64,000 nt of DNA from assembly GCF_003855095.1 (NCBI RefSeq), contig NZ_CP033972.1, positions 372,001-436,000 on the forward strand, given 5' to 3'. The position numbers and the translations under genes are program-made. Shown in pieces: positions 8,160 to 49,368 of this stretch. The notes beneath the pieces are model-generated. The model made no database searches. It saw only the letters and a list, made by a program, of their open reading frames with translations, and was not told the DNA's origin. Numbering within the stretch: position 1 is the stretch's first letter; each line of letters opens with the position of its first letter. Source of the stretch: Gordonia insulae. GTDB taxonomy: Bacteria; Actinomycetota; Actinomycetes; Mycobacteriales; Mycobacteriaceae.

Positions 8160-9034
8160 TGGCTTCCTTCTCGAGTGGGTTGGACGCCGGGGGCGCAATC
8201 GGGGCCGTCGAGGAACTCGAGGACCTTGGGAACGAACTCACGGTAGTGCTGGAAGACGCCGCCGTGGCCGGAGCCGGGATAGATCACGATTTCCGCGTTG
8301 GGCAGTCGGTTGGCCAAGTCGAATGAGTGTTCGCTGGCAACCATCACATCGTTGTTGCCGTTGGCAACCAGGACCGGTTGGGTGATGCCCGAGAGATCAT
8401 CGGGCGCCGCCTTGCCGCCGGCGATGATGGCGCGCAACTGGGCCAGCCGTGCCTGTAGCGAGATCGCGGTGTCGAGGTCGGTGGTCCGTTCCGCCAAGCG
8501 GTCGAAATACGCTGCGGCCGCACGTTTGCCGTCTGCGGTCCGTGGGAAGAACAGGTAGTTGCGGGCGTCTTGGCGGGTGAGGGTGGCTTTGAGGTAAGCG
8601 CTCCCGACGATGATGGCCATCTTGTCGATACCGGCCCCTCCTCGTGGTCCCGTGCCGGTCAGCACGATCCTGCGCACGAGGTCGGAAGCGCGCAGCGCCA
8701 CGACCTGGGCGACACCACCGCCGAGGGAGAAACCGAACAGGTCGACCTTGTTCAAGCCGAGGGCGCGGATGAAGGCGATTGCATCGGCAGCCATCTCATC
8801 AATGCTGCCCGGAACTTTCGATCCGGATCCGCCGACTCCGCGATTGTCAAAGGCGATGACCCGGTGCTTCTCGGCAACGCCGTCGATGACGCGGGGATCC
8901 CAGTCGTCCAAGGTTGCGGTGAAGTGGTGTAGGAACACCACTGGCACACCGCTGGTGGGGCCGAGCTCACGATAGACGAAACGGACACCTTTGACGTCGA
9001 TGCTCTGGTTGGGAGTATCCGTCCACGCGGTCAT
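8156..9034 (-). CDS. Alpha/beta hydrolase (copy 1 of a paralogous pair)
   Basis: 292-aa soluble alpha/beta-hydrolase. The ATG at 9034 overlaps the SDR stop by four bases (ATGA) and its own stop overlaps the next gene by four, so translation is coupled on both sides. The oxyanion-hole region is FLHHFTA, the nucleophile elbow is GFSLGG with Ser103, and the catalytic His lies in PGSGHGG near the C-terminus. The acid is probably the Asp in NNDVMV. Family members include esterases, C-C bond hydrolases and cofactor-free haloperoxidase-like enzymes; the substrate is unknown. It is clearly paralogous to the hydrolase at 9822-10712, sharing for example NWDPRV/DWDPRV and VDLFGFSLGG. Confidence 0.88.
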   Translation of the reverse strand: MTAWTDTPNQSIDVKGVRFVYRELGPTSGVPVVFLHHFTATLDDWDPRVIDGVAEKHRVIAFDNRGVGGSGSKVPGSIDEMAADAIAFIRALGLNKVDLFGFSLGGGVAQVVALRASDLVRRIVLTGTGPRGGAGIDKMAIIVGSAYLKATLTRQDARNYLFFPRTADGKRAAAAYFDRLAERTTDLDTAISLQARLAQLRAIIAGGKAAPDDLSGITQPVLVANGNNDVMVASEHSFDLANRLPNAEIVIYPGSGHGGVFQHYREFVPKVLEFLDGPDCAPGVQPTREGSQ

Positions 9035-9756
9035 GACTCGGCAGCTACGGAAGTCGATCGCAGGGCGGGGTACGACGATTCGATGGGTCCGCTCAGAGCC
9101 GTCTTGACCATGACGGTCAGCTCGTCGCCGAGGACCTCGTAGCCACCCGATGCGACAGTGTCGTACACCTGCGTCACCAGGTCCTCGGGCCGGAGTTTGG
9201 GGCCGTCGGCGTGCGCGGCCATGGCGGTGTCGACGTAACCCATGTGCACTCCCACGACGTGCACGCCGTGTGGAGCGAGTTCGAGGCGCAGCGAATTGGT
9301 GGCCGACCACAGGGCGGCCTTGGATGCGCTGTACACCCCGCCGAAGGCGTTCCAGCTGGCCACGGAGTGGATGTCGACGAGTGCCGCGCCGGGTGCTGCG
9401 ATCAGCGACTGGGCAAACGCCTTCGCGATCAGGACCGGCCCGAAGAAGTTCGTCTCCATGGCCGCTCGCAGGTCGGATTCCGACAGCTCGAGGTAACTCG
9501 CGGTCGGCGGGACCACGCCGGCGTTGTTGATGAGCACCGTCACGTCGGACGCGAGCTCGGCGGCGGCGGTGATCGATTCGCCATCGGTGACGTCGAGTTG
9601 CAGGGGGACGATGCGCTCGTCCTCCCACGTGCGTGGAGATCGCGCCGCTGCGTAGACCTTTCGCGCACCGCGGGCGAGCGCCTGATGGACGAAGTGACCG
9701 CCGAGGCCGCCATTGGCGCCGGTGACCAGGACGACCGAATTGTCGAGACCAACCAT
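9031..9756 (-). CDS. Short-chain dehydrogenase/reductase (SDR)
   Basis: 241-aa classical SDR. The cofactor motif TGANGGLG is at residues 12-19, NNAGV follows at 77-81, and the catalytic Tyr142 and Lys146 are in YSASK, with a serine about ten residues before. Length and motif spacing are normal. The ATG at 9756 follows an AAAGG. It would oxidise an alcohol or reduce a ketone with NAD(P)H. It lies between the two paralogous hydrolases in the TetR-facing operon; the gap of about 65 bases to the upstream hydrolase holds no promoter that I can see. Confidence 0.9.
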   Translation of the reverse strand: MVGLDNSVVLVTGANGGLGGHFVHQALARGARKVYAAARSPRTWEDERIVPLQLDVTDGESITAAAELASDVTVLINNAGVVPPTASYLELSESDLRAAMETNFFGPVLIAKAFAQSLIAAPGAALVDIHSVASWNAFGGVYSASKAALWSATNSLRLELAPHGVHVVGVHMGYVDTAMAAHADGPKLRPEDLVTQVYDTVASGGYEVLGDELTVMVKTALSGPIESSYPALRSTSVAAES

Positions 9757-9821
9757 GGTGTGACCTTTCTGAGGGAAGTGCTCGGCGCACAGCGTGCTGC
9801 CGGGAGGAAAGAGCTGGGGCG

Positions 9822-10712
9822 CTATGCCGCGAGAAACTCCAGTGCGGTGGGGACGAACTGCTCGTGCGCCTGGAAGATTCCGCCGTGACCGGCGTCGGAA
9901 TAGATGCGCAGGGTGGCGTTGGGCAGGCGGCGTGCCAGATCGTAGGAGTTGCTGGTGGGCACCATCCGATCGTCTTCACCGTTGGCGACCAGCACGGGGT
10001 GGGTGATCGTACTCAGATCAGCCGGTTCGGTCAGGCCCCAGGTGTGGATCGCGCGAAGCTGGGCTTGGAAGGTTCTCAGCGAGACCTTCTTGTCGCGGTT
10101 GGTGGACCGTTCACCCAGGCGTGTGATAAACGCCCGCGCCTGCGCCTTGCCGTTCGCGGTCCGTGTGAAGAAGAGGTTCTGTTTGGGATCTTTGCGTGTC
10201 AGCACCCCTGCGATGGAGTCCGCGTAGGTCACCCGGGTCACCTTGTCGATGCCCTCGCCGCCGGCCGGGCCGGTGCCGGCGAGGATGAGTTTGCGGACCA
10301 GTGCGGGGCGTTCGATCGCGATGACCTGCGCGACGAAACCGCCCAGTGAGAAACCGAACAGATCAACCTTGTCGAGTCCCAGTGCCGAGATGAAGGCGAT
10401 GACATCGTGAGCCATCTCGTCGACGGTCGCCGGTGTCGCGCCACTCGAACCACCGACGCCCGTGCTGTCGACCACGATGACGCGATGCTGGGCAGCGATG
10501 CCGTCGACGACGCGTGGATCCCAGTTGTCGAGGTTCGCAGCGAGGTGGTTCAAGAACACCACCGGCACGCCACCGGCGCGACCGTATGTGCGGTAGGCGA
10601 AGTCGGTGCCGTCGACCGAGATCGTTTGGTTCGCAACGGTCGTCCATGAGGTGTCTGGGGTCGCGCGCGGCGCAGTGATGTCGCCGGGGTTGCGAACTGT
10701 GTGGTCTGTCAT
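9822..10712 (-). CDS. Alpha/beta hydrolase (copy 2, first gene of the operon)
   Basis: 296-aa alpha/beta-hydrolase. The start ATG at 10712 is preceded by GGGAG; the frame stays open far upstream but the extension would cross the operator region and TetR gene. Nucleophile Ser122 sits in GFSLGG, and the catalytic His in SDAGHGG. The acid is probably within NGEDDRMV. Compared with copy 1 it has an extra ~25-residue N-terminus. As promoter-proximal gene of the operon it is the one directly behind the two predicted TetR operators. The substrate cannot be read from sequence. Confidence 0.88.
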   Translation of the reverse strand: MTDHTVRNPGDITAPRATPDTSWTTVANQTISVDGTDFAYRTYGRAGGVPVVFLNHLAANLDNWDPRVVDGIAAQHRVIVVDSTGVGGSSGATPATVDEMAHDVIAFISALGLDKVDLFGFSLGGFVAQVIAIERPALVRKLILAGTGPAGGEGIDKVTRVTYADSIAGVLTRKDPKQNLFFTRTANGKAQARAFITRLGERSTNRDKKVSLRTFQAQLRAIHTWGLTEPADLSTITHPVLVANGEDDRMVPTSNSYDLARRLPNATLRIYSDAGHGGIFQAHEQFVPTALEFLAA

Positions 10713-10725
10713 GTGTCTCCCACTC

Positions 10726-10747
10726 AAGTAAACCGATCTGTCTACTT
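10726..10747. promoter_or_regulatory. Predicted TetR operator 1
   Basis: A 22-base imperfect palindrome with core ACCGATCTGT and outer arms AAGTA/TACTT (9 of 11 pairs match), between the divergent hydrolase operon and TetR gene. It shares its core layout (GTAAAC, then GATCTGT) with operator 2. Confidence 0.6.
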
Positions 10748-10770
10748 CACCGTAGATCACGATCAGCGGT

Positions 10771-10792
10771 TTGTAAACAGATCTGTGTATAT
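10771..10792. promoter_or_regulatory. Predicted TetR operator 2
   Basis: The perfect ten-base palindrome ACAGATCTGT with partial outer symmetry (8 of 11 pairs). Its centre is 45 bases from that of operator 1, and the two are direct repeats of each other. Confidence 0.6.
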
Positions 10793-10838
10793 TGAACGAG
10801 TAACCCGTTCGGCGAGACGTGATTGGTCGGTGACTTCG

Positions 10839-11426
10839 ATGGCAAACGCAACACGCGCCCAAGGGCCGCGCCGTGGTGACGGGCGGGGGCCTCGGGAACG
10901 CATCCTCGCGGCCGCGACCGAGCTGTTCTACGTCGAGGGAATCAACGCCACGGGTGTCGATCTGATTGCCGAACATGCCGACGTGTCCAAAAGGACTCTC
11001 TACAAGTACTTTCCGAGTAAGTCGGCGCTGGTGGAGCAGTATCTTTCCAGTGTTCGTGGCGTGGCGGTCGACCCGAGGGACGTACCCGCTGCCGGACCGC
11101 GCGAACGGTTGATGCTGCTGTTCGCCATCCCGGAGCCGGGGGAGGGTCGGATGCGCGGATGCCCGTTCCACAACGCGTCGGTGGAGGCGGCCGGCATCAT
11201 GCCCGACGTCACCGAGTTGGTGCACCTACAGAAGCGGGCCTTCGCCGCAGCGATCATTGATCTCTGTCGCGAGTATGGCGCTGCTGACCCGGAACTGCTC
11301 GGACACCAGATCGCGCTGCTCTACGAAGGCGCGGCGGCCCTGTCGACATCGCTCAACGACCCCCAACCGTGGGTCTATGCACGAACAACTGTCGAGACAC
11401 TGCTCGATCAAACAATGCCCGAATGA
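10839..11426 (+). CDS. TetR-family regulator of the hydrolase/SDR/MDR operon
   Basis: 195-aa repressor-like protein. The N-terminal helix-turn-helix domain is clear: RERILAAATELFYVEGINATG, then LIAEHADVSKRTLYKYFPSK, with the YKYFPSKSALVEQYL end of the TetR DNA-binding domain. The C-terminal ligand domain contains GCPFHNASVEA, a segment often seen in TetR proteins that sense small lipophilic molecules. The start is the ATG at 10839; a GTG three codons earlier is possible, and neither has a strong ribosome site. Its divergent position and the two matching palindromes between the start codons imply that it represses the operon and itself until a pathway compound binds. Confidence 0.9.
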   Translation: MANATRAQGPRRGDGRGPRERILAAATELFYVEGINATGVDLIAEHADVSKRTLYKYFPSKSALVEQYLSSVRGVAVDPRDVPAAGPRERLMLLFAIPEPGEGRMRGCPFHNASVEAAGIMPDVTELVHLQKRAFAAAIIDLCREYGAADPELLGHQIALLYEGAAALSTSLNDPQPWVYARTTVETLLDQTMPE

Positions 11427-11538
11427 ACGTCGTTCGGGCACAACGGCTTGGTGTTCAACAAAGTCGTGAACAGCAACTCCTGGCAACCGCGAGCCGGAAC
11501 AGTTCGGCCCGCAAAGGTCCTACCGATAGCCGGCGCAG

Positions 11539-12147
11539 TCAGAGAAGACCTCGGGCTCGTGCGTTGGTGATGAGTTGTGCGCGGTTGCGTGCTGTGAGCC
11601 TTTGCAGCACGTTTCGGACGTAGTCCTTCACCGTGTTGACCGACAAGTTCAACTCGGAGGCAATCTCGACGTTTGTATGCCCGGCCGCGATGAGCCTGAG
11701 CATGTCGTACTCACGAGGGGTGAGCAAGCTGGTACCGGAGGGGATCTCGGGCGACGACGTCAGGCGTCCGGTTGCTGCGGCATCGTGGACGGCCGCGCAC
11801 AGGTCGTACCCGGAGATGTCTTTCACCAGTAGTCCGCACGCCCCCGCCGCAAGCGCGGCTGCTACACCGTCGTGTTCAGGGAATGCGGTGAAGATGATGA
11901 TCTTCGACTCCGGTGAGGTCGCCGCGGCGCGCCGAACAACCTCGTGCGCCGGCATGTCTGGCAGCCTGAGATCGAGTAGCACTACGTCGGGCCGGTAGTT
12001 GCCACACATCGCGACGGCTTCGCGTCCGGACGGGGCCAGGCCGACCACCGATACTTCAGAACATGACTTGAGCTGCGAGGCGACACCGTCACGAACGACT
12101 GGATGATCGTCGACAACGATAACGCGGATGCTGGCAGAGTCAGTCAC
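11539..12147 (-). CDS. NarL/FixJ-type response regulator, LuxR-like HTH (orphaned)
   Basis: 202-aa response regulator. The receiver domain has the acidic pair in VVDDHPVVRDG, the phosphoacceptor in VVLLDLRLPD, Thr in IFTAF and Lys in LLVKD. The C-terminal LuxR-type HTH reads LTPREYDMLRLIAAGHTN and LSVNTVKDYVRNVLQRL. The GTG at 12147 overlaps the stop of the upstream kinase remnant by four bases (GTGA); a GTG at 12168 is an alternative. The organisation shows it was coupled to a histidine kinase, but only the C-terminal tail of that kinase remains here, so its present signal source is unknown. Confidence 0.88.
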   Translation of the reverse strand: MTDSASIRVIVVDDHPVVRDGVASQLKSCSEVSVVGLAPSGREAVAMCGNYRPDVVLLDLRLPDMPAHEVVRRAAATSPESKIIIFTAFPEHDGVAAALAAGACGLLVKDISGYDLCAAVHDAAATGRLTSSPEIPSGTSLLTPREYDMLRLIAAGHTNVEIASELNLSVNTVKDYVRNVLQRLTARNRAQLITNARARGLL

Positions 12148-12425
12148 GGGGAAAGCCTCATCCTCCACGTGGCGCCATCCTCTGACGAGTCCGACGACAG
12201 ATCGAACGTTCCGCCCAATCGTCTGACGGCTTCGTCGGTCTTACTGAGACCGAAGCCCTTTCGGATCGGACCAGCAAGACCGACGCCGGCGTCGGTGACT
12301 GCTACGGTCACGCGGCCAGCGGGGCAGTGGCGAACCCCACTCGAGGCGCGAGTCGAGCCCCTACCCGCGGAGCAATTGAATCGCGTTGCGCGCGCGGTGT
12401 TGTGGGTCATTCGTCGGTGAACAGG
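12144..12425 (-). pseudogene. C-terminal remnant of a two-component histidine kinase
   Basis: The last ~55 codons before the stop at 12144 read as the end of a HATPase_c domain: VTVAVTDAGVGLAGPIRKGFG carries the G1-type DAGVGL motif and is followed by VRRLGGTFDLSS and a WRMRLSP end. Upstream, the similarity becomes weak and a stop is met at 12426-12428, so the dimerisation domain, sensor and N-box are missing. The remnant is still coupled to the response regulator by a four-base overlap. Confidence 0.7.
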
Positions 12426-12834
12426 TCAAGTCGAAGACTTCACGGTCTTTCGAACGTTTGCCCGGCTCGGTCGGATCTTCCCGGCGCACGCGGTGTTCCT
12501 TTCGCAGATTCTCATGCACGGCAAACTGAACCCCGCCGAGAAGGAGCTCGTGGTACTGCATGTCGCTTGGCGAGTGGGATGTGTCTGCAAATGGGCGCAC
12601 CACGCGCAGATGGCCGATGAGCCCGGCATCTCAGAGGAGCACATAGTCGCGTTGGCAACGCACAACCCCGTCGTGGCCGAACCTCGACTCCACGCCTTCA
12701 TTACCGCCGCAGCGCAGCTCGTCGAAACCGGTCAACTCGATCAGAACACCTGGCGCGCCGTAGCCGACGTCGCAGGCGATGACACCGCCCTCGAGTTGTG
12801 CATGCTGGCGGTCATTACGTCATGGTCGCGATGA
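12421..12834 (+). pseudogene. Carboxymuconolactone-decarboxylase (AhpD-like) gene lacking its 5' end
   Basis: The reading frame is open from 12421 and reads EDFTVFRTFARLGRIFPA before the first possible start, a GTG at 12493. The family core follows: KELVVLHVAWRVGCVCKWAHH, then ISEEHIVAL. Relatives normally have about 25 more residues ahead of the FRTFAR segment. The frame is closed by a stop immediately upstream (12418-12420), where the kinase remnant on the other strand also loses its homology. A 113-aa product from GTG 12493 is possible but would lack the first helix of the fold. Confidence 0.65.
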
Positions 12835-13083
12835 CCATCAAACAGCGCGGGCATTCAGCTCGAACCAGCGTTCCACTGCCGTCACCGACCGCATCCTTGC
12901 AGCCGCCACCACCGCCTGATTCAGGCGGATCAGAGTCCATCCGTGTGTGAAGCCGGGGCAGTCCCCACGGCATCGGCGGCCTCACCCGATCCAACGACTA
13001 CACGTTCACAACCTCACCGGGTCTTGCATCTAGCTCGTCGTCAACGAGGGTGTGCTCCCTGGAGGCGGCCTTGTTCGGCTCGT
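12835..13083. other. Spacer without a recognisable gene
   Basis: A short minus-strand stretch around 12843-12960 reads like protein (for example MRSVTAVERWFELNARAV before a stop), but it has no start or family match that I can name. It may be a further gene fragment of the same eroded region. Confidence 0.4.
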
Positions 13084-13725
13084 TCAGTGTGGTGGCTTCA
13101 GCCGGAGGATGTGGTTGACGGCGTCGACGCCGAGTGCGGTGAGTGTGGCGACGAGCTCTGTGCGTTCGAGTGTGACGTCGCCGCGCAGCCATAGCGCGAC
13201 TCCTTCGGTGGTGCCGCCGACGAGCACTCGGGCGATGAGTTGAGCTCGTGGGTCGTCGGCCCGGTCGCCGGCGAGCAAGGTCAGTAGCTGAGTGACGAAG
13301 TGGGCCACCGCGTGATCTCGCGCTGCGCGGAGTCCGCGGTTGCCCGGGGCCTCGAGATATAGACGTGCGACGCGTGGATCGTCGAAGGCGGTCAGGATTT
13401 CTTCGACGGCGCCTTCGATCAGTCGGGCTCTGGGCGCGTCGCTGTCGAGTTCGGCTGATGCCGCGGCGATGCGATCGGCGACGTGTGCGAGCACGTCGGT
13501 CAGTGTCTCCTCCGTGAGGTCATCGAGATTGGAGAAGCTGAGGTAGAGATGGCGTTTGGAGACCGATGCGCGTTCGCAGATAGCTCCGACACTCAGCGAT
13601 TCGATACCGCTCTCATAGACGAGGTCGAGGACGGCCTCGGTCAGTCGATTGCGGCGCGATAGGCGTCGCTCTGTAGCGCTTTGCCCGCCGTAGGGCCGCC
13701 CGGCTGGCTCGGTGGTCTGCGTCAC
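13084..13725 (-). CDS. TetR-family regulator facing the Ldi-like/oxygenase operon
   Basis: 213-aa TetR protein. The DNA-binding domain spans about residues 22-68: RRNRLTEAVLDLVYESGIES, then ICERASVSKRHLYLSFSNLDD, an unusual HLYLSFSN in place of the common LYYHFxS. The ligand domain contains LYLEAPGNRGLRAARDHAVAHF. It starts at the GTG at 13725; the ATG just upstream runs into a stop in two codons. The gene is divergent from the operon at 13847-16823, and a symmetrical sequence lies between, so local regulation is likely. Confidence 0.88.
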   Translation of the reverse strand: MTQTTEPAGRPYGGQSATERRLSRRNRLTEAVLDLVYESGIESLSVGAICERASVSKRHLYLSFSNLDDLTEETLTDVLAHVADRIAAASAELDSDAPRARLIEGAVEEILTAFDDPRVARLYLEAPGNRGLRAARDHAVAHFVTQLLTLLAGDRADDPRAQLIARVLVGGTTEGVALWLRGDVTLERTELVATLTALGVDAVNHILRLKPPH

Positions 13726-13810
13726 GTGCCCATAGTGCCAGTGTCGGCGACCGACTGTCGTTCGCCGGTCGCACTGTTGACGACGCAGGATACACCGCCC
13801 TACGATAAGT

Positions 13811-13832
13811 GAAACCGAAACGGTACGGTTTC
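13811..13832. promoter_or_regulatory. Predicted operator for the neighbouring TetR protein
   Basis: GAAACCG and CGGTTTC form a perfect 7+7 inverted repeat with an eight-base spacer, in the intergenic region between the TetR gene and the divergent operon. It ends 14 bases before the first start codon of the operon. Confidence 0.55.
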
Positions 13833-13846
13833 AGAATGGGGTTCGG

Positions 13847-14014
13847 ATGCTGTGCTGCACGATTTTGCTGCTGTTGATGGTCGGCCTGCGCAAAGTTTTC
13901 CTCGTCGTCGGCTCGTCGGCGGGCCACCAGGTCTCTCAGGCGACGGCGATGCCGCCGGTCGCACGGCGGGTCGTCACGCCGGAGTTGCCAGTGCCTGAGG
14001 TGGCGGGGCGATGA
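13847..14014 (+). CDS. Small 55-aa membrane peptide, first gene of the Ldi-like/oxygenase operon
   Basis: An ATG at 13847 opens a 55-codon frame whose stop (14012-14014) overlaps the ATG of the next gene by four bases (ATGA). The N-terminus is a hydrophobic helix, MLCCTILLLLMVGL, followed by RK and FLVVGSS, then a proline-rich tail. A weak GGGG lies upstream. The overlap with the large downstream gene and the position just behind the predicted operator argue that it is translated. It could be a leader peptide that couples translation, or a small partner of the membrane-fused enzyme; no family is recognised. Confidence 0.55.
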   Translation: MLCCTILLLLMVGLRKVFLVVGSSAGHQVSQATAMPPVARRVVTPELPVPEVAGR

Positions 14015-15942
14015 GCGTCACGCCGGCGGCGCGGCTCGGTCGGCGGCTTCCGGCGCGGCTGTTGCCGACGTCGCGCCCGGTGGTGTCGCCGGTGACCAGA
14101 AGCAGGTTCGGCAGAGCTGCGGGGGTGTATGCCCTGCTGTGGGCCGGTGGCCTGCTGGTCACCGCCACCGGCAACACCGTGGCCGGCGTCACGGCGATGG
14201 GGTTGCTGCTTCCCGGCGGTGGTCATCTGGCATCGGGTCATGTCGGGCACGCGGCAATGGCGTTGGTCGCGTTCGGACTCGCACTTCTGGTGTGGTGGAT
14301 GATCGGCGCGATCGTCGCCCCGATCATCGTGTGGCTAGCGTTCACGATCGAAGCGGCTCTGACGCATTCTCATGCACATCATCTGTCGATCACCTGGATC
14401 TCGATCACTGCCGGACTGGTTCCGGGTGGGGTGTTGGTCGCGTTCGGCGTACATGTCCTGCGTCACAGCCATCAGGTTGCGGTTGCGCAGTCTTTGAATA
14501 CCGAACTCGCTGATGTCACGTTCTTCGAGACTGCGGTGCCGTCGTCTCCCGAGCCGCCAGTCGGTGAAGCGTCGACAGATGATCTCGCGCATCTTCGCTT
14601 TGCGCTCGACCTCGCTCTGCAACCGCTCGAGGACTTCGCGGGATTCGACCGCCGGGACCAGTTCCGGGAAGCCGCACTTCGCTACCAGCTCAGCGTCCTG
14701 GCCTATGCGCTGTCGATGTACCGATACTCCGCAACGCCGGCGTTCTCGGGCTATCTGGCCGAAGCGCAGGAGCGGGCAATCCTGAAAATGGGGAACAAGC
14801 GGGTCTGGGGATACTGGCCGCTGGAAAATGCCTGGGGGCGACTGTCCCTCGGTCGAGACCCGGTCGACAACAACGACAACGTGATGCTGACCGGATGGCA
14901 GGGCGCCGCGGTCGGGATGTACGAGAGCTTCGGCGACAACCGATTTTCCCGGCCGGGCGGGTTGACCTACACCTGGTCCGACGGACAAGAGTATCGGCAC
15001 GACTTCCACAACCTCACAGAGTCCATCCACCGCAACATGCGCCGGTCGCCCTACACACTGTTTTCCTGCGAACCGACGTGGATCTATCCCGTCTGCAACA
15101 CCTTTGGTGTCACCACCCTCATCGCTCATGACCGACTGCACGGCACGAGTTTTCATGCCGACCTCGACGAGGCGATCGCGCGCGCGTACGAAGACGAGTT
15201 CACGCGCCCGGACGGCAAACTCATCGGGGTTCGCAATGAGAGCCTGGGTTTGTCCTGGAACATCTGGGCCAGCGAAGGTGTCAGTCTCCCGACGACCTAC
15301 TGGATGAACGCATTTCTGCCGGACCAGGCACAGCGGGCGTGGTGGCTCATGAAAAGAAACTCGTTGAAGTTCGAAGGAGAGCGCTTTGTGCTACCGCGGA
15401 CCGCAGCCAATCGCTGCGACGTCGGCAACTACTCCTTCGGCAGTGACTCGTTCGCCCATACCTTTCTCTCGCTGACCGCTCGTGAGATGGGCGATGACGA
15501 GATCGCAGACGCCGCATTCGCCTACGTCGATACGAAAGAGCACATCGAACGCCAGGCAGGTGTCGCGCGGTATGACGGAATGTCCACGCAGGGCAACCTG
15601 TACTCGCTGCTCGCGCGGTTCTCGCGGGCGGCGGCCAATCGTGATCTGATCGGTGCGGGCCTGCCCGCCCATTGGCTCGCGGCCCCTCGTCTGGCCGAGG
15701 CCGCGTATCCCGATGTTCTCGTCGCCCGCGCTGTCACCGATGGCCGAGCACTGGAGCTGGTTCTCTATCCCGGTGATGGCGGCACTCGCGCAACACTGGT
15801 GATCGATCAGCTCCGGCCTCACCGCCGGTACGCGGTGCTGGGAGCCTTCAACCCGGCGGTCGAAGCAGACCACAATGGTTGCGCCCGAATTGATCTCGAC
15901 ATCGAAGGACGCACCGCCGTCCGAGTGGAGCCAACCTCATGA
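14011..15942 (+). CDS. Membrane protein fused to a linalool dehydratase/isomerase (Ldi)-like domain
   Basis: 643 aa. Residues ~36-155 hold four or five hydrophobic segments and His-rich loops (HSHAHH at 119-124). From about residue 190 the protein matches the Ldi alpha/alpha-barrel as I recall it from Castellaniella: KMGNKRVWGYW (Ldi KMKCKRVWGDW), GRDPVDNNDNVML, and CEPTWIYPVC (353-362), followed by DRLHGT. Both cysteines reported as catalytic in Ldi (C171, C180) therefore have equivalents, Cys353 and Cys362, at identical spacing. The Ldi active-site His in KGH is Trp here (TGW), so chemistry or substrate may differ. Ldi interconverts myrcene, linalool and geraniol. The start overlaps the small peptide gene and the stop overlaps the oxygenase gene, both by four bases (ATGA). 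Confidence 0.8.
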   Translation: MSVTPAARLGRRLPARLLPTSRPVVSPVTRSRFGRAAGVYALLWAGGLLVTATGNTVAGVTAMGLLLPGGGHLASGHVGHAAMALVAFGLALLVWWMIGAIVAPIIVWLAFTIEAALTHSHAHHLSITWISITAGLVPGGVLVAFGVHVLRHSHQVAVAQSLNTELADVTFFETAVPSSPEPPVGEASTDDLAHLRFALDLALQPLEDFAGFDRRDQFREAALRYQLSVLAYALSMYRYSATPAFSGYLAEAQERAILKMGNKRVWGYWPLENAWGRLSLGRDPVDNNDNVMLTGWQGAAVGMYESFGDNRFSRPGGLTYTWSDGQEYRHDFHNLTESIHRNMRRSPYTLFSCEPTWIYPVCNTFGVTTLIAHDRLHGTSFHADLDEAIARAYEDEFTRPDGKLIGVRNESLGLSWNIWASEGVSLPTTYWMNAFLPDQAQRAWWLMKRNSLKFEGERFVLPRTAANRCDVGNYSFGSDSFAHTFLSLTAREMGDDEIADAAFAYVDTKEHIERQAGVARYDGMSTQGNLYSLLARFSRAAANRDLIGAGLPAHWLAAPRLAEAAYPDVLVARAVTDGRALELVLYPGDGGTRATLVIDQLRPHRRYAVLGAFNPAVEADHNGCARIDLDIEGRTAVRVEPTS

Positions 15943-16823
15943 AACTACGTCCCGGTCTCGTTGTGTCCCGGCAGATCGCACGGTTGGATCCGGTCGTCGA
16001 CGCCGACGAGATCGCTCGGCTGTCGTTGGTCACCTTGCACGGCAATCCGGCTTTGACCTACGCCCTGTTCACCGTCGCGTTCATGAAGCAGGTGGCGGTT
16101 CCGACCATGGCCCGAATCCTGTACCGCCGTGGAGGTGGGGACATCATGGCCTTCCCGGCGCAGCGCAATGACGACACCCTGCTGTTCTTCGGGCAACTGC
16201 TCGATCACGGACCGACCTCGCCAACAGGACGCGCGTGGATCGAACGTCTGAACCAGATCCACGCGCACTTCCCGATCCGCAATGACGACTCGCTCTACAC
16301 GCTCTCGACGCTGGCTCTTGATCCCCATCAGATCACCTCCGACATCGCGCATTCCCCCTTCACGCCAACAGAATTGGAAGCGCAGTGGCACTTCTGGCGC
16401 TCGGTGGCCGAGTTGCAAGGACTCCACAGCCTGCCCGAGACGCGCGAAGCGCTCCACGGATGGGCACAGTCCTACGAGCAGCGTGAGTTTGCGCCGACCA
16501 GCGAAGGGCGCGCCGTGGCCCGCTCGCTGATCGACACGTTCGCAGAGCGTGTTCTGCCCAGACATCTGCGACAGTATGCGGACCAGATCATCTCGGCCGT
16601 CTGCCCACCGAATCTCCGCGACGTCCACGACCTACCCCAACCCCCTCCGCCCGTACAACTCGCGGCCGGACTAACAGTCGCTGCGTACGCTCGATCCGCT
16701 GCATTACGCCTGGTCGACCTCGAGCGATCCATGGTCGACACATTCGGCGTCCGACAGTACGGCGAGCGACAGCCGTCAGAAGTGGGTTATCAACGGTCAC
16801 AGCGCAAGGACCACACCATCTGA
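15939..16823 (+). CDS. MpaB/Lcp-type oxygenase (DUF2236 family)
   Basis: 294-aa protein of the DUF2236 family, which includes fungal MpaB (oxidative cleavage of a farnesyl chain) and is related to rubber oxygenase Lcp. Recognisable segments are LSLVTLHGNPALTYALF, NDDTLLFFGQLLDHG, the IHAHFPIRNDDSLYTLSTLA block, then FWRSVAELQGLHSLPET and WAQSYEQREFAPTSEG. The RxxDxLYTL and GLxxLPET parts are the family hallmarks. The family binds heme b through a histidine; His118 in NQIHAHF is a candidate. The C-terminus is proline-rich and then helical. There is no signal peptide. The start overlaps the Ldi-like gene by four bases, so the two are made together and probably act in one pathway. Confidence 0.82.
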   Translation: MKLRPGLVVSRQIARLDPVVDADEIARLSLVTLHGNPALTYALFTVAFMKQVAVPTMARILYRRGGGDIMAFPAQRNDDTLLFFGQLLDHGPTSPTGRAWIERLNQIHAHFPIRNDDSLYTLSTLALDPHQITSDIAHSPFTPTELEAQWHFWRSVAELQGLHSLPETREALHGWAQSYEQREFAPTSEGRAVARSLIDTFAERVLPRHLRQYADQIISAVCPPNLRDVHDLPQPPPPVQLAAGLTVAAYARSAALRLVDLERSMVDTFGVRQYGERQPSEVGYQRSQRKDHTI

Positions 16824-17014
16824 GCGGGAAACGATCACCAGTGCTTGAGGGGCCACCGATCGCCGCTGGTCCCGTAGGACCGGGAACCGGTCATCGCGTC
16901 AGATCGAAGTGCTCCGGTCTAGGCCTACGTGGATTCGAGGGCCGGTACGGCGGTCTCGCGATATCGTGAATCGCTCCGTCACTCTGGCGGACTACATGAA
17001 TGCCCTACACACCT

Positions 17015-19723
17015 TCACAGCCTCCGCATCCCGATCGCCTTGTCAATGCCGACGAACGTCGGCGTGATCAAGGACAGTCCCAACACCACCAGCCACTGCC
17101 CGCCGGTCAGCGACACGGTGTCGAGCAGTCGTTGCAGCATGCCCAGTTCCACTGCAGCCCACGTGAGTGTCCAGCCGGCGATGAGCCAGCCGAAGTAGGG
17201 GAACATCGGCTGAGACCACGGGACCTGGCGCTCGCGGCGCATGACCACGCCGAGGTTGACCCCGGTCAGCGCGACGACCGCGAAGGCCATCGTCATCGAC
17301 ACCGAACCCGTATCCGACGACGGCTCGTCGGGTCCCCACTGCAGAAGGGCCAGCGCGGTGACGGCGACGAGGAAACCGCTGATCACCCACCGGATGACCT
17401 GCGGGCCCTCGACGATGCGGGTTCCCGGCTTGCGGGGTGGACGCTGCATGACGCCGGGGTCGGGAACGTCAACGATCAGGCCGACCACCACAGTGACCAC
17501 CACGAACAACTTGCAGAACAGCAGTTGCATCGGCAGCATGGCCACCCCGCCGTTGATGTTGAAGATCGTCGCGAAGACCATCAACTGCAGAACCGACGAA
17601 AGGATCGTCAACTGCAGGCGGATGTAGGTCGATATCCGGCGGTAGATGTCCCGGCCCAGTTCCACGGCTCGCACCAGCGTGGCGAAGTTGTCGTCGGTGA
17701 GCACGATCTTCGCGGCCTGCTTGGAGACCTCGGAACCGCTTCCCATCGCGACGCCGATGTCGGCCTGCTTCAGGGCCGCCGCGTCGTTGACCGCGTCACC
17801 GGTCATCGCGACCACGTCCCCGTCCTCCTGCATCAGCCGGGCCAGTCGGAGTTTGTCCTCGGGAGCGACGCGCCCGAAGACGTGCAGTTGGGGAAGTCGG
17901 GTCTTCACGTCGTCGTCGCTGAGTTTCTGCAACTCGGTGCCGGTGATCACGCCCGGCCCCAGCCCGAGTTGATCGGCGATCGCCCGCGCGGTGATCGTGT
18001 GGTCGCCGGTGATCATGCGGACGTCGATGCCCGCGCCGAGCGCCGCGTGTACCGCGTCGGTCGCCTCTGTCCGCAGGGGGTCGATGATGCCGACGAGCCC
18101 GACGAACACGAGATCGGTGACCGATCCCATCGGCTCGCGCGACGCGGCCGTCATCTCGGCGTCATCGAGGCCCCGGGCGGCGAAGGCCAATACCCGCAGA
18201 CCCTTCTCGGACAGTTCACGATTGGCGTCGAGAATCTGCTGGCGCATGTCATCGATCGGCACGATCTCACCGCGCCGAAGTGCTGCACCGCAACGGTCGA
18301 GGACGACGTCGGGTCCGCCCTTCACGACGACGAGGTGAGGTTGATCGATCACCGCACCGTGGATCGTGGACGGGCGGTCGTGGAAGGTGGCCATGAACTT
18401 GTAGTCGGAATCGAACGGCACCTCGGTCACGCGGGAGATCGCGCGGCGGGTCGCCTCCGCGTCGACGCCCATCTTCGCGGCGAGCACCACGAGGGCCGCC
18501 TCGGTGGGATCGCCGATCACCGAACCGTCGTCGCCGACAGTCGCATCCGAGCAGAGCGAGAGTCCCAGGGCGAGTGGGGTGAAGTCGGGCGGATCGCCCG
18601 CGGCGCCGAGGATCGCACCGGACTTGGCATACCCGGAGCCCTCGACCCGGAACCACTGATCGCCTGCATACAGGGCGGTGACCGTCATGGCGTTCATGGT
18701 CAGGGTGCCGGTCTTGTCGGAGTTGATGACCGTGGTGCCGCCCAGAGTCTCGACGTCGGCCAAGGACTTGACCACCGCCTTCTGTTCCGCAAGATGCTGT
18801 GCTCCGGAGGACAGCATCGTCTGCACAAATGTCGGCAGGCCGGTGGGGATCGACGCGATGGCGGTGGAAATACACAGCAGGGCAAGGGTTTCGCCGCTCT
18901 GTCCGCGGAGCAGTCCGACGACACCGATGATCGCGACCGCACCCCAGGCGAGGAATCCGAATACCTTGGTCAGGCCGTCGAGCTCCAGTTGCAGCGGGGA
19001 TTTCGACCGTTTGGTGGCGGTGACCATGTCCGCGATCCGACCCATCTGGGTCGCGGCGCCGGTGGACGTCACCACGAACACCGCGGATCCCCGGGTGACC
19101 TGGGTGTTCTGGAAGACCATGTTCGTGCGGTCGCCCAGCGCGATGTCGCCGCCCGAGACAACCGCCGGATCCTTCGCCACTGGGGCACTCTCGCCGGTGA
19201 GCGCGGCTTCCTGTATCTCGAGGGTCGCCGAGGTGATGAGTCGGCCGTCGGCGGGCACGAGGTCGCCCGACTCGATCAGGACGACGTCGCCGGGTACGAG
19301 GTCGACGGCCGGGACCTCCGCCACCTGTCCACCGCGACGTACTCGCGCCAGCGGCACTTGCAGACCGGCGAGAGCGTCGACGCTCGCCTGTGCCTTCATC
19401 TCCTGACGGGTGCCCATCACGATGTTGAACACCACGAGGAAGGCCACGACGAGGCCGGTGGCGATCTGACCGATGGCGAACGCGGCCACCGCGACGATGA
19501 GCAGCATGATGTTCATCGGGTTCGCGAGCTGGCTGCGCGCGACCGCCCAGATGGACGGCGGTGGTTCCGCTGTCACCTCGTTCGGTCCGTAGGTTTTCAG
19601 CCGGACGGCCGCGTCGACGGTGGCCAGGCCGACGTTCGGGTCCACATCTGCGTCGGCTGCGACGTCGGAGGCGCTGCGGAGATGGGCATCGCCCAGGGCG
19701 TGCGAATCACTGAGGGCTGGCAT
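17015..19723 (-). CDS. P2-like P-type cation-transporting ATPase with altered ion-site motifs
   Basis: 902-aa P-type ATPase. The start ATG at 19723 follows an AGAGGA. Visible are the actuator TGES at 176-179, the phosphorylated Asp336 in DKTGTLTMN, KGGPDVVLDRC in the nucleotide domain, and MITGDHTITA. The hinge motif reads TGDAVNDAAALKQADIGVAMG, with Ala in place of the usual Gly and Pro of GDGVNDAPALK. In transmembrane helix 4 the calcium-type PEGLP is replaced by PTGLP (293-297), which removes the usual ion-ligand Glu, and helix 6 lacks the N..D ligand pattern. The overall layout (cation N-domain, P2 hinge, C-terminal helices) is that of a P2 pump, but the transported ion cannot be assigned. 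It is convergent with the Ldi-like operon. Confidence 0.9.
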   Translation of the reverse strand: MPALSDSHALGDAHLRSASDVAADADVDPNVGLATVDAAVRLKTYGPNEVTAEPPPSIWAVARSQLANPMNIMLLIVAVAAFAIGQIATGLVVAFLVVFNIVMGTRQEMKAQASVDALAGLQVPLARVRRGGQVAEVPAVDLVPGDVVLIESGDLVPADGRLITSATLEIQEAALTGESAPVAKDPAVVSGGDIALGDRTNMVFQNTQVTRGSAVFVVTSTGAATQMGRIADMVTATKRSKSPLQLELDGLTKVFGFLAWGAVAIIGVVGLLRGQSGETLALLCISTAIASIPTGLPTFVQTMLSSGAQHLAEQKAVVKSLADVETLGGTTVINSDKTGTLTMNAMTVTALYAGDQWFRVEGSGYAKSGAILGAAGDPPDFTPLALGLSLCSDATVGDDGSVIGDPTEAALVVLAAKMGVDAEATRRAISRVTEVPFDSDYKFMATFHDRPSTIHGAVIDQPHLVVVKGGPDVVLDRCGAALRRGEIVPIDDMRQQILDANRELSEKGLRVLAFAARGLDDAEMTAASREPMGSVTDLVFVGLVGIIDPLRTEATDAVHAALGAGIDVRMITGDHTITARAIADQLGLGPGVITGTELQKLSDDDVKTRLPQLHVFGRVAPEDKLRLARLMQEDGDVVAMTGDAVNDAAALKQADIGVAMGSGSEVSKQAAKIVLTDDNFATLVRAVELGRDIYRRISTYIRLQLTILSSVLQLMVFATIFNINGGVAMLPMQLLFCKLFVVVTVVVGLIVDVPDPGVMQRPPRKPGTRIVEGPQVIRWVISGFLVAVTALALLQWGPDEPSSDTGSVSMTMAFAVVALTGVNLGVVMRRERQVPWSQPMFPYFGWLIAGWTLTWAAVELGMLQRLLDTVSLTGGQWLVVLGLSLITPTFVGIDKAIGMRRL

Positions 19724-20069
19724 GCAGGGCGTCCTCTCGACACGCGATGGTCGACATCTGAAGCCCACCGCATCAAGCACTGTCGATGAGCGCCGAGCAG
19801 CACCCATCCGAGCACATCATGCCCCGATCGGTCGCCTGGTGCGCTCGGTATGGAATGGGTCGTGACAGAGAGGTGATGCCTGTACAGGGTGTCTTCTGGT
19901 CGTACTCGTCGGTCAGGTGTCCCAGGCGACCGCGCCGGGGAGCCCAGCGATGCGCACACGCCGTCGGTGCGAACGAAAAATCAAGCCAGGCAAAGTCGGT
20001 CGCGGCCTCAACTGGTCACCCGTGCGACGGGGGATGCCGAGCCGATTCGCTGATCGCGATCGCGACGCC
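19724..20069. other. Intergenic stretch without a recognisable gene
   Basis: Open frames here have no convincing start, codon pattern or family resemblance. The part nearest 19724 should hold the ATPase promoter, but no clear -35/-10 pair stands out. Confidence 0.5.
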
Positions 20070-20483
20070 TCACTCCGGTTCGGCTCCGGTGGCGGTCGCC
20101 GGGTCCATCCACATGATCTGCCACGAGTGACCGTCGAGATCGCTGTAGCTGCGGCCGTACATGAAGCCATGGTCCTCGGTGTCGCCCGGCGTGGCGCCTG
20201 CGGCGACGGCCCGGTCGACGAGCGCGTCGACGCCGTCTCGGCTGTCGGCGTCGAGGCAGACGATGCATTCCTTTGTGGTTGACGCGTCCGCGGTCGTGGC
20301 CGGGTGAAACGAATCGAAGTAGTCGCGCTGGAGCAGCATCGCGACGATGTTCTCGCCGAGCACGAGCGAGATGGCCTTGTCGTCGGAGAAGACCTCGTCG
20401 AATGTGTAGCCGAGGTCGGTGAAGAAAATGCGCGAGCGGGCCACGTCGGCCACAGGCAGGTTCACGTAGATCGTGTTGTGCAT
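20070..20483 (-). CDS. VOC-superfamily (glyoxalase/bleomycin-resistance-like) protein
   Basis: 137-aa protein of the vicinal-oxygen-chelate fold. It opens with MHNTIYVNLPVADVARSRIFF, typical of the first beta-alpha unit, and ends with GRSYSDLDGHSWQIMWMDP, the second-module signature (DPDGH-x-W). Start ATG 20483 is preceded by AAGGGAG with good spacing. Length equals one VOC domain pair. Members include lyases, dioxygenases and drug-binding proteins; the specific reaction is not resolvable. Glu/His metal ligands are only partly conserved, so a PhnB-like non-enzymatic relative is possible. It appears monocistronic. Confidence 0.82.
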   Translation of the reverse strand: MHNTIYVNLPVADVARSRIFFTDLGYTFDEVFSDDKAISLVLGENIVAMLLQRDYFDSFHPATTADASTTKECIVCLDADSRDGVDALVDRAVAAGATPGDTEDHGFMYGRSYSDLDGHSWQIMWMDPATATGAEPE

Positions 20484-20763
20484 CGGATGTCTCCCTTATG
20501 CTGTGCGCCCGTTGTCGGGCGACGTCGAGTAGATAGACATCGCGAGACGCCGAAACTGATCGTCGTCGTTGCGGGGCAACTGATCGCTGCACGCGCGGCG
20601 GCCTCGGCCGGGCGTCCGGATTGCCAGGCGCGCCACCATTTCCCAGTTCGCGCATCGATTGAGGCCTTACCGTAACTACCCTTCCAGGGTGATCGAGGCG
20701 CGATGTTGCCGTCGCCCATGGTCCGCACGTGCGCGCTCGTGAACGCAGGAGGTACTCGAAGCA
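20484..20763. other. Intergenic region between VOC gene and tRNA terminator
   Basis: No gene or RNA is recognised. The stretch includes a few short inverted repeats of no clear type and should carry the promoter of the VOC gene next to 20484. Confidence 0.5.
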
Positions 20764-20790
20764 GAAAGCCCCCGCTGTGCGGGGGCTTTC
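20764..20790 (-). terminator. Strong hairpin terminator downstream of tRNA-Leu
   Basis: A 12-base-pair perfect stem, GAAAGCCCCCGC / GCGGGGGCTTTC, with a TGT loop. It begins two bases after the encoded CCA end of the tRNA on the minus strand; only a short U-rich end (CTTTC) is present. Confidence 0.8.
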
Positions 20791-20791
20791 G

Positions 20792-20868
20792 TGGTGCCCT
20801 CGGTGAGACTCGAACTCACACTGGACGGGTTTTGAATCCGTTGCCTCTGCCAATTGGGCTACGAGGGC
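20792..20868 (-). tRNA. tRNA-Leu (anticodon CAA) with a short variable loop
   Basis: Cloverleaf on the minus strand. The acceptor stem is GCCCTCG/CGAGGGC, and the T arm is GTGAG-TTCGAGT-CTCAC. The discriminator is A and the CCA end is encoded at 20794-20792. The seven-base anticodon loop TTCAAAA gives anticodon CAA (20834-20832), reading UUG leucine codons. The anticodon stem has one A-C mismatch next to the loop. The variable region is only about five bases, so this is a class I body rather than the long-arm class II form typical of bacterial tRNA-Leu. It is followed by a strong terminator and lies just upstream of pdtaR, where mycobacteria also have a tRNA-Leu gene. Confidence 0.85.
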
Positions 20869-21007
20869 ATCCGCAGCGCCGACATTGCTGTGGCGGCTGC
20901 GACAGTCCACTTTAGATGATCGGCCGACCGCGGGACCAACCGGTACTCTGCACGCATCAGGTCGTGACAGATCATGCTGGTCACGGCTGGTACATGCGGA
21001 GGAGGGG

Positions 21008-21634
21008 ATGGTGACGGTGGCAGACAGGGCTGCGGATCGGACCGGCGAACAGACGACAACCCATCGGGTGCTCGTCGCCGAGGACGACTCGCTGATCCGG
21101 ATGGATCTGATCGAGATGCTCCGCGAGGAGGGCTACGACGTCGTCGGCGAGGCCCCCAACGGGCAGGTCGCCGTCGAGCTCACCGAGAGCCTCGCACCGG
21201 ATCTGGTGATCATGGACGTCAAGATGCCGGTACGCGACGGTATCGATGCCGCGTCGGAGATCGCGCAGAAGAAGTTGGCGGCGGTGGTCATGCTGACGGC
21301 CTTCAGTCAGCGTGAGTTCATCGAGAAGGCGCGAGACGCCGGCGCGATGGCCTATCTGGTCAAGCCCTTCACCAAGGCCGACCTCGTGCCGGCGATCGAG
21401 GTGGCGGTCAGTCGCTACAACGAGGTCGCGGCCCTGGAGAAGGAAGTCGCGACGCTGGGCGAGCGGCTGGAGACGCGCAAGCTCGTCGAACGCGCGAAGG
21501 GTCTGCTGATGGAAAAGCAGGCGCTGACCGAACCCGAGGCGTTCAAGTGGATCCAGCGCGCCGCGATGGATCGGCGGACGACGATGAAAGCTGTCGCGCA
21601 GGTCGTTGTGGAGACTCTGGGCCCCACCGGCTGA
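21008..21634 (+). CDS. pdtaR: PdtaR-like response regulator with ANTAR RNA-binding domain
   Basis: 208-aa two-component regulator resembling mycobacterial Rv1626. The receiver domain (about 20-135) has the acidic pair in VLVAEDDSLIRMD, the phosphoacceptor Asp70 in LVIMDVKMP, Thr in MLTAFSQ and Lys in LVKPF. A coiled linker (VAALEKEVATLGERLETRK) leads to the ANTAR domain: LVERAKGLLMEKQALTEPEAFKWIQ, which binds tandem hairpins in RNA to prevent transcription termination. It is expected to be phosphorylated by a PdtaS-type kinase encoded elsewhere. The start is set at the ATG 21008 behind a purine-rich GGAGGAGGGG; the in-frame GTG codons at 21011 and 21017 are alternatives with better spacing. 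Confidence 0.92.
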   Translation: MVTVADRAADRTGEQTTTHRVLVAEDDSLIRMDLIEMLREEGYDVVGEAPNGQVAVELTESLAPDLVIMDVKMPVRDGIDAASEIAQKKLAAVVMLTAFSQREFIEKARDAGAMAYLVKPFTKADLVPAIEVAVSRYNEVAALEKEVATLGERLETRKLVERAKGLLMEKQALTEPEAFKWIQRAAMDRRTTMKAVAQVVVETLGPTG

Positions 21635-21815
21635 CGCGGGGTCGGCACGCCGTTAATTCTGTGAAAACACGGCGGACAAAGTCATGCGGCTTTGCTTCCA
21701 ATCCATCGCGGGGGCCTGTGATTCGGACTATGTTTTCCGAAGGTCTCCTCAGCAGACCTCTCGGCTGCAGACGGATCGCCTGTACCGGGTGGGTGGGAAG
21801 TGAAGAGGTAAGAGA

Positions 21816-23048
21816 ATGCATCGTCGTGTGACGACAGGTGCTCTCGCGTTGGCTATGGCGAGCGTGCTCGCCGTGTCCGCGTGTAGCAGCAAATCCAGCG
21901 ACTCCGGATCCGAATCCGGGACCAGTGGCTCGGCTGCCGCGGGCTCCGGTCTACAGATCGCGCCCCTGGCCCAGATCGATACCCAGGGCAACGAGGTACA
22001 GGCCGCCGCGGAGTCGGCCGCTCTCAATCCGGCCGGTGACGGCAAGGCCGAGTGCCCGGAGACGACCATCGCCATGGCCGGCGCGTTGACCGGCGCCGAC
22101 GCCGCACTGGGCATCAACATCCGCAACGGCGCGCAGCTCGCGGTGGACCAGCACAACAAGGCAAACCCGAACTGCCAGATCGCACTGAAGACCTTCGACA
22201 CCGAGGGTGATCCGCAGAAGGCCACCCAGGTCGCTCCGCAGATCGTCAACGACGACGCCATCGTCGGCCTCATCGGTCCCGCGTTCTCCGGCGAGACCAA
22301 GGCCACCGGCGGCATCTTCAACCAGGCAGGTCTGGTGTCGGTGACCGCATCCGCCACCAACCCGACGTTGACCGACAACGGCTGGAAGACCTTCTTCCGC
22401 GGCCTGGCCAACGACGACGTGCAGGGTCCCGCGGTCGCCAAGTACCTCACCGGCACCATGGGCAAGAAGAAGGTCTGCGTCATCAAGGACGACACCGATT
22501 ACGGTGTGGGACTTGCCAAGGCGATGACCGAGTCGCTGGGATCGGCCGCCGACGCGAGCTGCTCCGGTGACGTCAAGAAGGGTGACCGCGAGTTCTCGGC
22601 GATCATCTCCAAGGTGACCGCCGCCAACCCCGACGCGGTGTTCTACTCGGGTTACTACGCCGAGGCCGCGCCGCTGGCGCAGCAGTTGAAGACCGCCGGT
22701 TCCGAGGCGACCTTTGTCTCCGGTGACGGCACCAACGACCCGCAGTTCACCGCTCAGGCCGGTGACAGCTCGAAGGGTTCCATCCTGTCCTGCCCGTGCG
22801 GTCCGGCACCGTCGCAGTTCAAGACCGATTACGAGGCGGCCTTCAAGCAGGCTCCCGGCGTGTACTCGGTGGAGGCGTACGACCTCGCGACGATCCTCAT
22901 GCAGGGCATCACCGAGGGCAAGCGCACCCGCCCCGAGTTGCTGTCCTACGTGGCCGGCTACAAGGGTCCGGGTCTGGCCCGTGAGTACGAGTGGAGCCCG
23001 ACCGGCGAGCTGACGTCCTCGCTGATCTGGGTCTACGACGTCAAGTAA
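21816..23048 (+). CDS. Branched-chain amino-acid ABC transporter substrate-binding lipoprotein (LivJ/LivK type)
   Basis: 410-aa lipoprotein. The signal peptide ends in the lipobox LAVSAC with Cys23 as the lipidated residue, followed by a Ser/Gly-rich linker. The periplasmic-binding fold type I is recognisable: MAGALTGADAALGINIRNGAQ, VVGLIGP-like IVGLIGPAFSGET, and a late YSVEAYDLATILMQGI. Two cysteine pairs (CPETT.../CQIAL and CPCG) could form disulfides outside the membrane. It delivers leucine/isoleucine/valine or a related amino acid to the LivHMGF complex encoded next. The ATG at 21816 follows an AGAGG. Confidence 0.93.
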   Translation: MHRRVTTGALALAMASVLAVSACSSKSSDSGSESGTSGSAAAGSGLQIAPLAQIDTQGNEVQAAAESAALNPAGDGKAECPETTIAMAGALTGADAALGINIRNGAQLAVDQHNKANPNCQIALKTFDTEGDPQKATQVAPQIVNDDAIVGLIGPAFSGETKATGGIFNQAGLVSVTASATNPTLTDNGWKTFFRGLANDDVQGPAVAKYLTGTMGKKKVCVIKDDTDYGVGLAKAMTESLGSAADASCSGDVKKGDREFSAIISKVTAANPDAVFYSGYYAEAAPLAQQLKTAGSEATFVSGDGTNDPQFTAQAGDSSKGSILSCPCGPAPSQFKTDYEAAFKQAPGVYSVEAYDLATILMQGITEGKRTRPELLSYVAGYKGPGLAREYEWSPTGELTSSLIWVYDVK

Positions 23049-49327: not shown

Positions 49328-49368
49328 CTCAAGCTCCCCGTCCACGTCGACCACCGATATGATGCAAT

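Follow-up and report, generated by a model that had tools for sequence, protein, structure and literature searches.

A conserved TetR-linked cassette of Gordonia insulae joins a membrane linalool dehydratase/isomerase-like enzyme to an M-x-C-C peptide and a trans-anethole-oxygenase-like protein

The window, i.e. the whole stretch of 64,000 nucleotides of Gordonia insulae DNA that was analysed, contains a compact row of genes coding for a regulator, a small membrane peptide, a membrane enzyme with a linalool dehydratase/isomerase (Ldi) domain and an oxygenase. The features are given below with window coordinates and strand.

13052..16824, no strand: whole cassette, one conserved block (blastn, 83.3% over 3778 columns against Williamsia sp. 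1135, locus L011)
13084..13725, minus: divergent TetR-family regulator (TetR_N PF00440, 29 bits)
13811..13832, no strand: TetR operator candidate GRAACCGRAACGNNNCGGTTYC, within the palindrome TGAAACCG-N8-CGGTTTCA at 13810-13833
13847..14014, plus: 55-aa M-x-C-C membrane peptide (75% identical in L011, with indels of 3 bases only)
14011..14014, plus: ATGA overlap of peptide stop and Ldi start, read from the sequence
14011..15942, plus: membrane Ldi-domain enzyme, 643 aa (PF18566, 268 bits, cut-off 26.1; AF2 model with pLDDT 92.7, pTM 0.92)
14089..14508, plus: membrane domain, residues 27-166 (helices of the AF2 model)
14554..15669, plus: Ldi (alpha/alpha)6 barrel, residues 182-553
14896..14898, plus: W296, counterpart of the active-site His128 of Ldi (alignments)
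15067..15096, plus: C353...C362, counterpart of the Cys170/Cys179 pair of Ldi (alignment to Ldi; invariant in 37 of 37 rows)
15688..15933, plus: C-terminal beta domain, residues 560-641 (strands in the model; outside the Ldi-aligned part)
15939..15942, plus: ATGA overlap of Ldi stop and oxygenase start, read from the sequence
15939..16823, plus: MpaB/Lcp-superfamily, trans-anethole-oxygenase-like oxygenase, 294 aa (MPAB_Lcp_cat PF09995, 51 bits, cut-off 23)
16164..16178, plus: R76-N-D-D-T80, putative residues of the distal haem site, assigned by analogy (no change of R76 or T80 in 28 rows)
16260..16262, plus: H108, candidate proximal haem ligand (invariant in 28 rows; aligns with a His of 8s1j)

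This arrangement is that of the initial annotation, which had read the peptide, the Ldi-type gene and the oxygenase gene on the plus strand as a coupled operon with two ATGA overlaps, behind a TetR gene on the minus strand and a palindrome. The palindrome was recovered, and the coupled operon with its regulator and operator candidate is supported. DNA identity to Williamsia sp. 1135 ends at the module edges (13052-16824); blastn at E 1e-3 gave no further match to L011 in the rest of window positions 9001-22000, and in L011 transposase-like ORFs, recognised by eye from the sequence, lie on both sides of the block. Substitutions against L011 at codon positions 1/2/3 numbered 10/7/15 in the peptide, 79/25/176 in the Ldi gene from codon 43, 38/19/88 in the oxygenase and 19/14/70 in the TetR gene; the third-position lean in all four genes, weakest in the peptide, supports the reading frames. 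Near the start of the Williamsia Ldi gene (L011, about position 2734) there is a one-base frame break relative to the window, a sequencing error or decay.

GC3 is 75.0 for the Ldi gene, 74.5 for the oxygenase and 72.4 for TetR, against a median of 85.8 for the ORFs of the window (genes called with a custom script). Profile searches found PF18566 matches in 9 of 59 genomes of the genus, the other proteins being 37-43% identical to the window Ldi or too weak to align, and a window-type Ldi with adjoining oxygenase, judged from about 1.5 kb around each match, occurs within the genus only in the genome studied here (1/59). The 83% block with its sharp edges, the low GC3 and the rarity in the genus fit an acquired cassette, which has probably moved horizontally as a small transferable unit. 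Window positions 9822-13000 hold overlapping ORFs with few good calls, namely two recognised by eye, a regulator-like ORF and a kinase-like fragment, and, some 250 bases past the TetR gene, one with a CMD domain; this may be a decayed island adjoining the cassette. ARAGORN called a tRNA-Thr (agt) at 12187-12280 on the minus strand, which lacks Rfam support and is probably false.

Relatives of the TetR regulator adjoin Ldi genes in L011, L012, L014, L015 and L016. The operator candidate is kept with 0-1 mismatch in L011, L012 and L014, thus in four of eight linked loci including the window, and was not found in the remaining four. A 22-base pattern drawn from the window site and these three relatives matched one site in the window, with 0.17 expected from shuffles when up to 3 mismatches are allowed; as the pattern was built from the site itself, this comparison is no independent test. 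The sole other site in the genome (at most 1 mismatch) sits in a called gene resembling an ABC substrate-binding protein and is probably due to chance, so that a wider TetR regulon was rejected.

The Ldi-like domain proposed for the membrane enzyme is borne out by the PF18566 match and the Ldi-type barrel of the model, and the two motifs noticed earlier are present, KMGNKRVWGYW from residue 259 and CEPTWIYPVC from residue 353. The membrane domain is modelled as long helices (27-52, 78-98, 102-118, 127-166) and short ones (56-66, 70-74), with hydropathy peaks beginning at residues 76 and 125; P68 and G69 are kept in the 24 rows shown of the alignment. The initial annotation had taken Trp in place of the active-site His as a pointer to a new reaction. 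The substitution itself is correct, but 36 of the 37 aligned relatives have F, Y or W at this position (His only in L057), and Trp alone is hence no sign of new chemistry; the idea was rejected as stated. D200 is a candidate, chosen by eye, for the counterpart of Ldi Asp38 (D in 30/37 rows), the printed Ldi alignment beginning only at residue 221. The block 188-214 holds no Tyr that could correspond to Tyr44, the residue which LinD contributes from the neighbouring subunit.

Ldi/LinD of Castellaniella defragrans is soluble and periplasmic, without the membrane and beta domains of the window enzyme, and where it has His128 and Cys101 (cap disulfide) the window enzyme has W296 and N262. It forms a pentamer (available text of PMC6600392), and its Cys170/Cys179 are numbered here after the accessible part of PMC12455561. 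The membrane-fused architecture claimed for the window enzyme stood, but its kind is already known from linalool isomerase (Lis, EC 5.4.4.4) of Thauera linaloolentis 47Lol, for which the available sections of PMC4791888 give 644 aa, four predicted N-terminal TM helices and an Ldi-like C-terminal part. Going by this description, the window protein is alike, with four N-terminal TM helices, an Ldi-like domain and 643 aa. Differences are that the Lis gene is reported to be separated from the adjoining genes by more than 150 bp, that its host is a denitrifier grown anaerobically, and that the same sections of PMC4791888 describe no oxygenase or peptide partner.

The blocks on which the oxygenase had been recognised were also recovered (IHAHFPIRNDDSLYTL from residue 107, GLHSLPET from residue 161), and its membership in the DUF2236/MpaB-like group follows from the PF09995 match above the cut-off and the invariant R76, T80 and H108. 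The superfamily assignment thus held; Lcp as a near relative did not, since the whole-length fold match to trans-anethole oxygenase (8s1j, Stenotrophomonas; 20-22% identity) was well above that to Lcp. Tat export is typical of Lcp; the window oxygenase gave no Tat match at E up to 1, and the same search does detect Tat in the window protein at 48104-49354 (minus), a second PF09995 oxygenase of 416 aa whose layout is more Lcp-like than that of the cassette oxygenase. Lcp is an extracellular rubber oxygenase with solved chains of 371-375 residues (5o1l; PMC5522427, text available in part), compared with 294 residues here. R76 and T80 were matched through motif and spacing to Arg164 and Thr168, haem-site residues of Lcp in the same source. 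The oxygenase probably cleaves C=C bonds. Haem as its cofactor is not certain, because the trans-anethole oxygenase of Pseudomonas putida is described as a flavoprotein in the accessible part of PMC3774712, which describes no link to Ldi. A profile search of the genome gave 14 matches to PF09995; the superfamily in itself is therefore common, a point against the preferred reading given below.

The co-occurrence of both enzymes across other genomes, suggested earlier as a check, was found. Among 397 genomes of the order, with up to 3 Ldi and 6 oxygenase candidates scored per genome, full-length relatives at least 49% identical to the Ldi occurred in four (G000, G079, G220, G322) and oxygenase relatives of at least 41% in the same four. 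Ldi matches at E 1e-20 occurred in 10 genomes and oxygenase matches at E 1e-25 in 25, the best oxygenase candidate scored outside the four reaching 105 bits, with 35% the highest identity; no oxygenase match above 32% turned up among 72,556 plasmid records. The two genes are linked in these four genomes, as they are in Williamsia 1135, Nocardia takedensis and G744. G499 provides an eighth linked locus (34% identical, TetR in between). The genes overlap or abut in six of the eight; in G322 a TetR gene stands between them, and linkage despite changed order indicates more than a single arrangement passed on by copying.

In the oxygenase tree the first seven linked rows form one clade (100/100) against 21 rows without Ldi in the flanks read. 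When G499 and an unlike DUF2236 protein of G492 were added, the nine linked rows still stood apart (96/80), these two on long branches. The G492 protein (L084 7143-8009) is a different, canonical DUF2236 member (PF09995, 211 bits) beside TetR, peptide and Ldi; both enzyme kinds may here have been paired a second time, independently. In the Ldi tree five linked rows fall in one clade (100/100) and all seven in the starred clade of 15 rows, and the oxygenase groupings resemble the Ldi groupings where the latter are resolved. With L065 counted, eight of these 15 rows are linked and seven have no trans-anethole-oxygenase-like gene in the flanks read, so that the Ldi can do without the oxygenase, which speaks against the preferred reading. 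In this survey, the oxygenase implies Ldi, but Ldi does not imply the oxygenase.

The 55-aa membrane ORF had been noted in the initial annotation, but not that it belongs to a conserved partner family of Ldi. It has no Pfam or NCBIfam match at E up to 1, on which its apparent novelty as a family is based. Its C3 and C4 are invariant in 21 alignment rows, and when ORFs of at least 35 aa with M-x(0-2)-C-C and a hydrophobic start were looked for, the window gave one, the peptide itself, and 21 control loci with oxygenase but without Ldi (77,982 bp) gave none. A chance ORF was rejected on this absence, the conservation in L011 and the alignment. The peptide stands beside Ldi at 26 of 43 distinct Ldi places, with one doubtful case (L022, wider spacing), and in 22 of 24 rows of the starred 24-row Ldi clade. 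The 16 places without it, which count against the preferred reading, comprise six weak Ldi matches (L009, L010, L072, L077-L079), the plasmid genes L057-L059, which show no match to the membrane part, then L020, L021, L049, L075 and L076, and the main-clade members L004 and L064.

The peptide may be free, at 38-56 aa, or part of a longer protein with membrane helices beside a separate Ldi ORF (204-253 aa, L001 type), and forms of middle length exist too; it lies 3' of Ldi in Aureimonas and Novosphingobium and carries a Caa3_CtaG domain in G460. These shifting split points suggest parts of one complex. Six longer fused forms revealed no parent family, two being without match, three below cut-offs and one (L080) Caa3_CtaG. 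A profile of 21 peptides gave 14 strong places (at least 47.8 bits; next best 25 bits) among the candidates scored in 384 genomes of the class; all 14 adjoin Ldi, but all belong to the training set of the profile. The 356 genomes of the phylum, some of them shared with the class set, gave one new case among the candidates scored, G853, at 55.5 bits. Misses are possible in these searches, as in most genomes the scoring covered 18-19 candidates out of some hundreds. G853 has one Ldi; its peptide ORF stops 20 bases before a contig end and the Ldi frame is cut off by the end of a second contig, as expected if an assembly gap separated the two, for which adjacency is predicted. This makes G853 the one independent prediction of the link, and it held as far as testable. 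Within the surveyed genomes the peptide was met only where membrane-Ldi relatives are present.

We favour, at about even odds (roughly 0.5), the reading of the locus as a catabolic (or detoxifying) cassette that has moved horizontally, is controlled by TetR and works as one membrane unit. The Ldi enzyme would be anchored at the inner membrane via its four helices and have the M-x-C-C peptide as a putative small membrane subunit. The enzyme would draw a hydrophobic allylic or tertiary alcohol from the membrane, and acid-base chemistry at C353/C362 would move or remove the hydroxyl group. A presumably haem-type oxygenase would then use O2 to cleave the exposed C=C bond, yielding a ketone and an aldehyde destined for ordinary oxidation. 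This suggests a compact O2-using breakdown route for branched plant-type alcohols, the substrate presumably being an isoprenoid.

Neighbourhoods of other Ldi genes bear on the kind of substrate. Annotated nearby are ALDH, alcohol dehydrogenase, an AMP-binding protein and P450, and by eye CoA ligase, thiolase, enoyl-CoA hydratase and acyl-CoA dehydrogenases were seen near the Ldi of L080, L081 and L088, which favours catabolism. Beside the window cassette neither genes of these kinds nor any terpenoid-pathway gene was recognised. Two AtuA loci lie far from the window in the same genome, where the known acyclic terpene route may thus exist as well. On plasmid pAU20b of Aureimonas AU20 (L050 7237-10386), the gene of a membrane Ldi, a 31% relative, overlaps the cis-prenyltransferase gene uppS (PF01255, 238 bits). 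The next two genes code for an M-x-C-C peptide of 38 aa and a DAGK_prokar protein, from a family that includes undecaprenol kinases. This operon favours a prenol substrate, and it is also what could support a biosynthetic role in which the pair tailors the cell's own membrane prenols. We regard such a role as rather improbable: Aureimonas is one case and without the oxygenase, some other Ldi neighbourhoods appear catabolic, and the cassette is confined to one of 59 genomes of the genus and low in GC3.

The kinship of the oxygenase to trans-anethole oxygenase, its nearest solved relative, raises instead an aryl-alkenol of the phenylpropanoid type, dehydrated by Ldi before the oxygenase cleaves a styrene-like bond; LinD does convert aromatic alpha-methyl allyl alcohols (PMC12455561, accessible part). 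With only 20-22% identity behind that kinship, no aromatic-catabolism gene recognised by eye beside the cassette, and a membrane domain that would better suit more hydrophobic chains, we consider this unlikely. Co-regulation of two enzymes that act on different molecules under one stress, e.g. terpenoid toxicity, would accommodate the same-clade Ldi genes lacking an oxygenase in the flanks read. It appears very improbable, given that the oxygenase subfamily was not found without Ldi in the genomes surveyed, that the trees agree where resolved and that the genes overlap or abut in most linked loci.

The known acyclic terpene pathway uses geranyl-CoA carboxylation. A possible, though doubtful, extension of the cassette reading is that membrane Ldi enzymes consist of several parts, among them an undescribed M-x-C-C subunit, and were in the window lineage coupled to a dedicated C=C-cleaving oxygenase, giving an isomerise-then-cleave route for beta-methyl-branched prenols with O2. 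The peptide would then be a redox guardian of the Cys pair or a substrate gate, and prenol cleavage would bypass the carboxylation. If true, three genes would form a tool for converting tertiary or allylic alcohols to ketones and aldehydes, and aerobic bacteria might by this route get past terpenoid methyl branches. It would also name a small protein to add whenever a membrane Ldi is expressed, and would supply a partner, and hence a testable substrate, for one subfamily of the MpaB/Lcp group, which is large and mostly uncharacterised. The enzyme parts are of known kinds; new, as far as searched, are their combination and the peptide family. The combination was not met in the open-licence literature, where no paper holds 'linalool dehydratase' and 'oxygenase MpaB' together and none of the papers listed in a further search pairs an Ldi term with an oxygenase term; this is weak evidence of absence.

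Genes of the cytochrome-oxidase-assembly type stand beside Ldi in L080 (8239-8988), L085 (8310-9056), L049 (11951-12802) and L058 (7505-8005). In L080 the M-x-C-C sequence is joined to a profile-tested Caa3_CtaG domain, and L085 looks alike; a cytochrome-oxidase assembly protein is annotated beside Ldi in R. opacus and a SCO protein in Allorhizobium. A link of the Cys-Cys peptide to copper is thinkable.
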